This document shows, piece after piece, positions 40,911 through 43,556 of a stretch of 64,000 bases of DNA; position 1 is the first letter of the stretch, and each line of letters begins with the position of its first letter. The notes beneath the pieces are model-generated. The model had not been told where the DNA came from. It was given only the letters and a program-made list of their open reading frames with translations, and searched no databases. Position numbers and translations under genes: made by a program. This DNA is from Lacticaseibacillus yichunensis (GTDB lineage Bacteria; Bacillota; Bacilli; Lactobacillales; Lactobacillaceae): NCBI RefSeq assembly GCF_003946405.1, contig NZ_RHOG01000002.1:62001-126000 (forward strand). The letters run 5' to 3'.

Positions 40911-41010
40911 GTGTGGAATTAGGTAAAAATCAGCTGGTCAAACAGCGTGTGGTATGCTTTAATAGACCAGATGAAAATTTTCCTAGACGCATAGCAAAGG
41001 AGTGGCACAC

Positions 41011-41952
41011 TTGGTCAATTTGCACACGACGATCGGCTCGTTTGGGTTCGACAATGTCTTGATGAATGCCAGTGGGGTCCGCTGCATGACGGCAGCCGAC
41101 CTCGATAAACTCGCAGACACCGTGGCGGGAACACTGATCACAAAAAGCGGGACCCCTGAGGCACGCACGGGCAATCCTAGCCCCCGCGCAGCCGGGCTTC
41201 CCTTTGGCAGTATCAATTCGATGGGCCTGCCAAATCTCGGCATCGACTATTACATCGATTACGTTGAAAAGTTCCAGGAAAAGCATCCTGACAAGCCGAT
41301 CTTCCTGTCGGTTGCTGGGCTTGGCCCCGACGACTACCATGTGATCGCCAAAAAGATTCAGGCAAGCAACTTTACGGGCCCGACCGAATTCAACCTCAGC
41401 TGCCCGAACGTCCCAGGTAAGCCGCAGATTGCCTATGATATCCCGACGACCCGCCGCATTTTGGATGACATGTTCTCGTTTTTCACCAAACCTGCGGGCA
41501 TCAAATTGCCACCGTATTTTGACCTGACCCAATTCGACGACATGGCGGCCGTGCTGAACGACTATCCGCTGACGTTCATCAACTCGATGAATTCGATCGG
41601 CAACGGCATGGCAATCGACCCGGAGACAGACACCACTCTGATCAAGCCCAAGGGCGGCTTCGGCGGTATCGGCGGCACCTACGCCAAGCCGATCGCGCTG
41701 GCCAATGTCCGCGCCTTCCGCCTTCGCCTGCGTCCGGAGATCGCGATCATCGGCACTGGCGGTGTCACCTCTGGCCGCGATGTCTATGATCTGATTCTCT
41801 GCGGCGCCAGCATGGTCCAGCTCGGCACCGTGCTCGGCATCGAAGGCCTCGGCGTCTTCCAGCGTCTGACAGAAGAGCTGTCCGCTGAAATGGCGAAAAA
41901 AGGTTACACCTCGATCAGCGACTTCCAAGGAAAATTGAAAACACTCGACTAA
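41011..41952 (+). CDS. pyrD: Dihydroorotate dehydrogenase, class 1A (fumarate-dependent)
   Basis: 313 aa, the size of class 1A enzymes. NASGVRCMT, SINSMGLPN, FNLSCPNVPGKPQ (catalytic cysteine region) and GTGGVTSGRDVYDLILCGAS (FMN phosphate site). Cytosolic; oxidises dihydroorotate with fumarate. It stands apart from other pyr genes. The start TTG 41011-41013 was chosen because AAAGGAG is eight bases upstream; an in-frame GTG at 41002 overlaps that site. Confidence 0.94.
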   Translation: MVNLHTTIGSFGFDNVLMNASGVRCMTAADLDKLADTVAGTLITKSGTPEARTGNPSPRAAGLPFGSINSMGLPNLGIDYYIDYVEKFQEKHPDKPIFLSVAGLGPDDYHVIAKKIQASNFTGPTEFNLSCPNVPGKPQIAYDIPTTRRILDDMFSFFTKPAGIKLPPYFDLTQFDDMAAVLNDYPLTFINSMNSIGNGMAIDPETDTTLIKPKGGFGGIGGTYAKPIALANVRAFRLRLRPEIAIIGTGGVTSGRDVYDLILCGASMVQLGTVLGIEGLGVFQRLTEELSAEMAKKGYTSISDFQGKLKTLD

Positions 41953-42031: not shown

Positions 42032-42074
42032 GCAAAACAAAAAGGGTCAGAATCGAAAAAAAAGATTCGGCCCC
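42032..42074 (-). terminator. Terminator of the 42-kb RNA candidate
   Basis: On the minus strand GGGGCCGAATC pairs with GATTCTGACCC (two mismatches) around a T-rich loop, then TTTTTGTTTT (42034-42043). Confidence 0.75.
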
Positions 42075-42400
42075 TATGTACGACAAACACACCGGTCGAC
42101 GTGTCTTTTCAGCCATGGCCAGTGTGCATTGGAGACTTTAGATTAGGAGACTGAGGGCGCCTTGCCGCGGGGCTTAGCGGGATCAGATTTTCAACCTGGC
42201 AGCTTGATCAAGGTGCGATTTTTGCTGCCGGACAACGGTGGTACTGGTGGTACGCCCTCTCGCCTAATTTATGACACCACTGACTCGGATGCCCTTCATA
42301 GCGGCTGCTCTAGGTTTGCGACGGGGGTGGACTCCCTCGCCGGGCACGCCGTCTCGGAGGAAAGCAATCTGTGTGGCCACGCCAGATACCTCTTCAACTG
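42043..42400 (-). ncRNA. Candidate free-standing structured RNA, unknown family
   Basis: About 357 nt between a consensus promoter and a terminator, with no credible ORF. Nested helices in the minus-strand RNA: complement of 42374-42380 with 42115-42121 closes the molecule; 42351-42353 plus 42342-42346 with 42282-42284 plus 42290-42294; 42263-42268 with 42142-42147 and 42253-42259 with 42153-42159; an inner GGCAGC/GCTGCC hairpin (42198-42203, 42224-42229). It is the right size for tmRNA or RNase P RNA, but neither the tag-reading segment nor GAGGAAAGTCC was found. It stands alone between pyrD and sdaAA. Confidence 0.6.
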
Positions 42401-42406
42401 TTGGTT

Positions 42407-42436
42407 AATATACACCCGTGAAAACGGTTTTGTCAA
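42407..42436 (-). promoter_or_regulatory. Promoter of the 42-kb RNA candidate
   Basis: TTGACA (42431-42436), 18 bp, TATATT (42407-42412) on the minus strand. A second GTTGACAAA lies 13 bp further upstream (42442-42450), forming a direct repeat. Confidence 0.8.
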
Positions 42437-42607
42437 CTTTATTTGTCAACAATTTAAATGCGTAAGAACCACGTCTCATCGGCATTTCTACCGATGTCTT
42501 GTCAGCTCCCGATATATTTATTTAAAATAACTTTTCCGCTTGGCCAATTTGGAATCACGACCCCTTCCTGTCAGATGAATGCCCCGACGTTTTTCAATCC
42601 TTCGCCA

Positions 42608-42680: not shown

Positions 42681-43556
42681 TTAATTGGTCGCATCGCCGA
42701 AGATCTGTTTTTGCAGGCGCTGGCCTGTTGGTGTGGTCGCAAGGCCGCCTTCCGCTGTTTCGCGGAAGATCTGTGGCATCTGGCGTCCGACTTGATACAT
42801 TGCGGTGATCACTTCATCCGGTGGAATCACGGAGCGAATCCCGGCCAGCGCCATGTCAGCCGAGACCAAGGCCTGCGAGGCGCCCATCGCATTGCGCTTC
42901 ACGCACGGCACCTCGACCAGCCCTGCGACCGGGTCGCAGATCAAGCCGAGCATATTGGCAAGAGTGATGGCCACGGCTTGGGCGGCCATGTCGGCGGTGC
43001 CGCCCTTTGCGATCACCAAAGCCGCCGCAGCCATCGCGGAAGCCGAGCCAACCTCTGCCTGGCAGCCGCCTTCCGCGCCGGCAATGCCCGCTTTGTTGGC
43101 AATCACCAAGCCAAACGCCCCAGCCGTGAACAGATAATCCACTTGGGCATCTCGATCCATGTGCAGCTGGTCGCGCACCGCCATTAACGTCCCGGCAAGC
43201 ACCCCGGCCGAGCCCGCTGTCGGTGTCGCGCAGATCAGGCCCATTTTCGCATTGACCTCATTCACCGCCACCGCATTGCGTACCGCGGTCAAAACAGTCG
43301 GGCCAAGCAGACTCTCGCCAGCATCTAAATACTGATCGAGGCGTTTGGCATCTCCGCCCGTCAGCCCGGTCACGGACCGCACGCCGGCGACGCCTTCCGT
43401 CACCGACGCCTCCATCACGGTCAGATTTTTCGCCATGATCGCACGAATGGTCTCGCGGTCCTTACCGCTGGTCGCCATTTCGGTGGCGATCATCAAGTCT
43501 GCGACTGACGGATAATTGGCACTTTGCTCGATGATATCTTGAATGGAATAAAACAT
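42681..43556 (-). CDS. sdaAA: L-serine dehydratase alpha subunit
   Basis: 291 aa. The iron-sulfur enzyme's conserved blocks are present: CATPTAGSAG, AEGGCQAEVG and CDPVAGLVEVPC, the cysteines that hold the [4Fe-4S] cluster. Converts serine to pyruvate and ammonia. GGGGG precedes ATG by five bases. It lies nine bases after sdaAB and ends at a strong terminator. Confidence 0.96.
   Translation of the reverse strand: MFYSIQDIIEQSANYPSVADLMIATEMATSGKDRETIRAIMAKNLTVMEASVTEGVAGVRSVTGLTGGDAKRLDQYLDAGESLLGPTVLTAVRNAVAVNEVNAKMGLICATPTAGSAGVLAGTLMAVRDQLHMDRDAQVDYLFTAGAFGLVIANKAGIAGAEGGCQAEVGSASAMAAAALVIAKGGTADMAAQAVAITLANMLGLICDPVAGLVEVPCVKRNAMGASQALVSADMALAGIRSVIPPDEVITAMYQVGRQMPQIFRETAEGGLATTPTGQRLQKQIFGDATN

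Follow-up and report, generated by a model that had tools for sequence, protein, structure and literature searches.

The first question raised by this locus was whether the gap between pyrD and sdaAA in Lacticaseibacillus yichunensis contains a gene. The window, a 64,000-nucleotide stretch of contig NZ_RHOG01000002.1, had been given a preliminary description that proposed a free-standing, structured RNA of no recognised family in this gap. The second question was what such an RNA would do. Large structured bacterial RNAs are usually encoded by a single gene.

A stand-alone gene with its own signals

The predicted gene lies on the minus strand (Table 1). Its upstream neighbour is the serine dehydratase alpha gene sdaAA (42681-43556, PF03313), and the dihydroorotate dehydrogenase gene pyrD (41002-41952, PF01180) is tail-to-tail with it. 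Both transcription signals named in the preliminary description were found again. The core promoter agrees with the consensus at 11/12 positions. The intrinsic terminator was read from the sequence and is present in the copies described below; a simple scan did not list it because its stem is interrupted. A divergent plus-strand promoter-like site, TTGTCA-18-TAAAAT, was set aside since it overlaps the two upstream boxes and its -35 element is not retained in all copies.

Table 1. Features of the window RNA gene, with further copies of two congener RNAs
Feature	Position	Strand	Evidence
RNA, ~360 nt from predicted start to terminator T run	42041..42400	-	Alignment of 14 full-length copies, this one included, in two genomes; 94% interspecies identity
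Core promoter TTGACA-18-TATATT	42407..42436	-	Promoter scan; retained in all copies having the 5' side
Upstream box 1, GTTATTTTAAATAAATATATC	42511..42531	-	One window match against 0 expected; occurs together with box 2 (genus search)
Upstream box 2, CTGACAAGACA	42495..42505	-	Copy alignment and genus search with box 1
5' domain: helix GAGG/CCTC closing around hairpin ATCTG..CAGAT with GGCC loop	42357..42392	-	Paired in every copy; loop from folding
GGCC apical loop, proposed self-kissing site	42375..42378	-	Invariant in all copies with the 5' side; self-complementary
Second hairpin, entire stem swapped between subtypes	42318..42340	-	Two pairs changed on both sides (alignment A1); shifted pairing register of subtype A read by eye
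Nearly invariant core GCAAACC..CTATG..GTCATAAATTAGG, including hairpin GGCAYC/GGTGTC	42263..42319	-	Copy alignment and helix analysis
Inner domain, closed by ATTAGG (42268-42263)/CCTAAT (42147-42142) and GAGGGC (42259-42254)/GCCCTC (42158-42153)	42142..42268	-	
3' hairpin GCACACTGG/CCGGTGTGT	42087..42127	-	Paired in 100% of cells
Intrinsic terminator, stem-loop GGG..GAATC-T8-C-GATTC..CCC and T run	42036..42074	-	Read from sequence; present in copies
Overlapping GTG frame of 38 codons, considered non-coding	42264..42380	-	Substitution pattern; no Pfam match
Further G011 RNA copies	L179, L180, L187, L190, L196, L188, L192, L198		
Further G013 RNA copies	L199, L200, L204, L206, L211, L213		

Rfam 15 was searched with the window RNA and four other copies, and gave no match at the gathering or a relaxed threshold. 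The OLE, ROOL, GOLLD and HEARO models did not match these sequences even at a relaxed E-value. A highly diverged housekeeping RNA (RNase P, 6S, tmRNA or SRP) would fit the size of the RNA, and the Rfam 6S model (RF00013) finds nothing in the window genome (G000) or in G021 at E 0.001. This silence is uninformative, as the model is insensitive in the genus and reached its cut-off in 0/30 congeners; it also gave no match over the window RNA or the four other copies. RNase P RNA is encoded elsewhere (301 bits at G000:C67, and 304 bits), and the window RNA is not a class B RNase P RNA by RF00011. ARAGORN and Rfam found no tmRNA over the window RNA, and ten copies in just two species do not fit a housekeeping role. 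We consider this identity practically negligible, in keeping with the earlier failure to find housekeeping hallmarks. Two annotation points emerged from these searches. Rfam annotation of 6S RNA fails in the genus, all 30 Lacticaseibacillus genomes falling under the cut-off. A T-box-like leader near the trp locus of the window genome (L005:215-458, minus strand, 85.5 bits) scored just under the gathering score.

Ten copies at shared loci in two sister species

A nucleotide search of 60 relatives placed matches to the window copy at ten dispersed sites in its own genome, with 71-98% identity across the greater part of the query or as far as a contig end. The preliminary description had called the gene isolated; it is one of ten genomic copies. 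About as many copies were found in one congener, Lacticaseibacillus mingshuiensis 117-1, and none in the other relatives. By their 4-kb flanks 10/10 loci each pair with one L. mingshuiensis locus and so occupy the same chromosomal places, some copies being split or cut by contig ends.

R1, a covariance model built on the 5' domain, recovered the RNA in 2/399 family genomes and 2/396 order genomes. Two weak R1 matches (L063 and L078, one per genome set) are at chance level for ~790 genomes, and matches to the core pattern in metagenome-assembled genomes (L034, L039) were dismissed for want of a covariance-model match. Searches of phages, plasmids and viral contigs returned nothing credible for the family; three viral contigs share a 17-mer with it. 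As far as these searches reach, the RNA family is confined to two sister species. In four congeners sdaAA and pyrD are adjacent with a gap of only 54-88 bp, which suggests that the RNA was gained in the common ancestor of the two species.

The neighbours of the copies are unrelated: multicopper oxidase, Cys/Met lyase-type enzyme, pepX, glnA, MFS transporter, Na/H exchanger, valS and sdaAA/pyrD. No neighbour gene common to the copies was seen, and at most loci the RNA and the gene downstream of it are arranged tail-to-tail. Amid these unrelated flanks the boxes and promoter are retained. Every copy with a 5' side has box 1, box 2, a variable spacer of near-fixed length, and a core promoter of the form AAATAAAGTTGACAAAACCGTTT..TATATTAATC with some variants. 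Across 30 Lacticaseibacillus genomes the double box is restricted to these RNA genes, bar four stray three-mismatch matches. Judged by these shared elements, the ten genes resemble a private regulon.

The copies also differ beyond the RNA. B-type copies (L041, L042, L044-L048) keep ~110 bp past the terminator, directly 3' of the RNA, with hairpins CGATTCT..AGAATCG and GTGC..GCAC that resemble bidirectional terminators. A-type copies, including the window copy, are without this segment.

Constraint on the RNA and exchange among copies

Between the two species, identity was 94% for the RNA, ~90% for the boxes and 61% for the promoter spacers, the last figure leaving out two loci whose spacer boundary was not found. 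Four-fold codon sites in sixteen neighbouring genes were 81% identical. The higher identity of the RNA and boxes than of four-fold sites and spacers indicates that both are constrained by selection. Hypermutation was dropped as an explanation of the 61% spacer identity; to the eye, nearby intergenic DNA looks about as diverged, and drift is explanation enough.

The 5' subtype at G000:C10 is not the one at its orthologous locus G021:C1, and there are switches of terminator version as well. Such switches indicate gene conversion, in which copies exchange sequence but stay put. In L. mingshuiensis the window copy's orthologue (L050:8010-8377, minus strand) has a partly broken GAGGGC/GCCCTC helix and other unusual changes, and it may be decaying.

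These observations bear on whether the copies are what is left of a MITE-, PATE- or HEARO-like non-autonomous mobile element, once dispersed in an ancestor and now only inherited. Like MITEs and HEARO-type RNAs the copies are dispersed, intergenic and lineage-restricted. The short sdaAA/pyrD gap in four congeners and the high density reached by similar-style congener families would also fit. Unlike such elements, the copies have no transposase neighbours or HEARO match, and when their edges were compared no terminal inverted repeats or target-site duplications were seen. They also lack a common neighbour gene, all ten positions are frozen across both species, and conservation of the RNA exceeds that of synonymous sites, which would not hold for an inert relic. 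We regard a relic as improbable; it stands second among the rival explanations.

Covarying helices

Fourteen full copies from two genomes were used to draw a ten-helix model with the same sequences in view. In this model 95.9% of cells are paired and seven pairs have changed on both sides; the covariation stems from few independent events (three subtypes). Neither its covariation score nor its count of doubly changed cells was equalled in any of 500 shuffles, and slid controls paired in 34-48% of cells. The two helices named in the preliminary description held over the 14 copies: ATTAGG/CCTAAT is paired in 100% of cells, and GAGGGC/GCCCTC in 95%, where one pair has changed on both sides. The helix analyses gave no support for the 7-bp pairing between the RNA ends that had been claimed with them.

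The first hairpin is paired in every copy and defines three 5' subtypes (ATCTG/CAGAT, TTCTG/CGGAA or GTTCG/CGAAC), three compensatory states in which 3 pairs have changed on both sides. The helices of the RNA covary in this alignment, and those of the 5' domain do so when taken alone. The inner domain contains a length-variable segment that holds 9-nt repeats in the other subtypes. The fold energy of the window copy is unremarkable (z = +1.25), with 87/100 shuffles folding at least as well, so the case for an RNA rests on conservation and covariation. Taken with the lack of an Rfam match, the private promoter architecture and the selection on the RNA, the covarying helices support a real, undescribed, stand-alone non-coding RNA gene, as had been proposed at the outset.

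The main rival explanation is a multicopy trans-acting base-pairing sRNA or sponge of the LhrC kind, in which ten copies would raise dose, C-rich stretches would pair with targets and self-pairing would be incidental. C-rich stretches do occur in the RNA (UUUCCYCC, an AAGCCCC loop and UACCACC repeats); they are retained in all copies, and the inner segment varies in repeat number. The 5' stretch is partly paired in helix 1, and most of the invariant positions lie in the structured core. LhrC-type sRNAs are about 100 nt long; RNAs of the window family measure ~360-410 nt from predicted start to terminator, and the window RNA is ~3x the LhrC size. LhrC of Listeria (PMC4132741) is a known case of a multicopy, co-regulated sRNA whose CU-rich target sites are redundant, and it shares with the window RNA several stand-alone copies under one apparent regulation (here ten loci with shared boxes) and CU-rich stretches. 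The window RNA differs in being far larger, more structured and spread over ten loci in unrelated contexts. On balance we find a base-pairing regulator rather unlikely.

A conserved GTG frame

The preliminary description found no open reading frame with a ribosome site. This stood in part: all copies that retain the 5' side share an uninterrupted GTG frame of 38 codons, preceded by an SD-like AAGAGG/AAGGGG, but its substitutions are not coding-like. Such a frame raises the possibility of a messenger or dual-function RNA for a 38-residue peptide, the more so as its length is constant across the three subtypes despite indels between them. However, of nine codons that vary within subtypes eight change the encoded residue and one does not, and the peptide's first half shows no relation from one subtype to another, a pattern that argues against coding. 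Two of the residue-changing substitutions keep helix 4 paired, the SD-like sequence and start sit within helices, and Pfam gave no match to the peptide. We hold a peptide product to be very improbable.

Many-copy RNA families in other congeners

Congener G011 has a different stand-alone RNA gene in its sdaAA/pyrD gap (L084:2430-3000, minus strand). In a 400 kb sample of this genome blastn detected five more copies, and covariance model R3 another three that are more distant; G006 has a further relative (L232:1439-1625). This family is ~400 nt long with its own conserved promoter and terminator, forms at least two subfamilies, and gave no Rfam match over the G011/G006 RNA. Congener G013 has an RNA between pepX and glnA (L120:3891-4453, minus strand) and, in addition to it, six copies in 308 kb; a relative occurs in G007 (L121:3891-4467, minus strand). 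The G013/G007 family has an invariant UAGCGC loop on a hairpin whose stem is swapped between copies. Extrapolation from the samples gives an estimate of several dozen copies each in G011 and G013.

Both families resemble the window RNA in having their own promoter, ~400 nt length, many dispersed copies, a first hairpin with a self-complementary loop and whole-hairpin replacements. They differ in sequence: blastn and covariance models found no significant match to the window RNA, and pairwise alignment gave a weak signal for G013 (z = 3.7, one of 55 pairs). Homology was not claimed from the GCAA..CTATG..CATAA likeness of the window and G011 RNAs; the unfiltered R1 matches are noise, and the same pattern occurs elsewhere by chance. 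Orthology from shared gaps (sdaAA/pyrD in G011; pepX/glnA in G013/G007) was also rejected, coincidence being likely with dozens of copies in such gaps.

Two other kinds of repeat were noted. The G013 sample contains a second, mostly non-coding repeat distinct from the G013 RNA (L206:1375-1944, L208:16366-16904, L210:9585-10274). GC-rich palindromic repeats of ~95-130 bp are dispersed, tandem or single (L118:3957-4216 in G018, L119, L168, L183, L216, L234), and in a 400-kb sample of G027 form ~eight clusters (L235, L247, L250-L252).

We tentatively raise the possibility that Lacticaseibacillus has a superfamily of stand-alone ~400-nt RNA genes, of which each genome would have between ten and several dozen dispersed copies, homogenised inside a species, beyond the reach of blastn between species, and sharing a self-pairing 5' kissing hairpin. 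The window gene would then belong to a new class of multi-gene RNA assemblies.

A self-complementary loop and a proposed function

The loop of the 5' hairpin is self-complementary GGCC in all window-family copies with a 5' side, and is itself without covariation there, being invariant. First-hairpin loops elsewhere are GGCC or GAUC in G011, CGCG in G006 and GCGC in G013; the G007 fold is an exception. Shuffled 5' segments have a self-complementary loop in 18-47% of cases, and the pattern is therefore suggestive, not proof. In OLE RNA a switch from GGCC to GAUC or AGCU speaks for a symmetric kissing loop that joins two molecules (PMC12286853). The window RNA has the same kind of loop, and its oligomerisation is surmised whereas the OLE contacts have been shown.

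OLE, ROOL and GOLLD are, like the window RNA, long, structured and without a coding frame, and lactobacilli are among their hosts (PMC12286853). An abundant 520-nt RNA of lactobacilli is also known, the L. salivarius lncRNA (PMC5643018). The window RNA differs from OLE, ROOL and GOLLD in having no Rfam match, a length of ~360 nt and ten dispersed chromosomal genes with one promoter type.

The gene family itself is well supported. We infer that the window RNA is transcribed and acts in trans and, by analogy with OLE, that it forms a kissing dimer through the GGCC loop. The explanation that we favour, and think probable if far from certain, is a ten-member family of stand-alone RNA genes with one dedicated two-box promoter, whose folded RNA acts in trans and is most likely joined through GGCC. 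The same promoter and boxes on all ten genes would yield one co-regulated RNA species, and ten genes for it would amount to dosage amplification as for rRNA. The product would act in trans as a folded RNA, two molecules most likely being joined by their 5'-hairpin loops into a kissing dimer or an assembly of more molecules.

That one unannotated 360-nt RNA has ten synchronised genes, and that congeners have dense families of other such RNAs, would suggest an RNA function with a high demand for dose, overlooked so far by annotation. The two host species are food-associated, and the shared loci make the RNA family directly testable.
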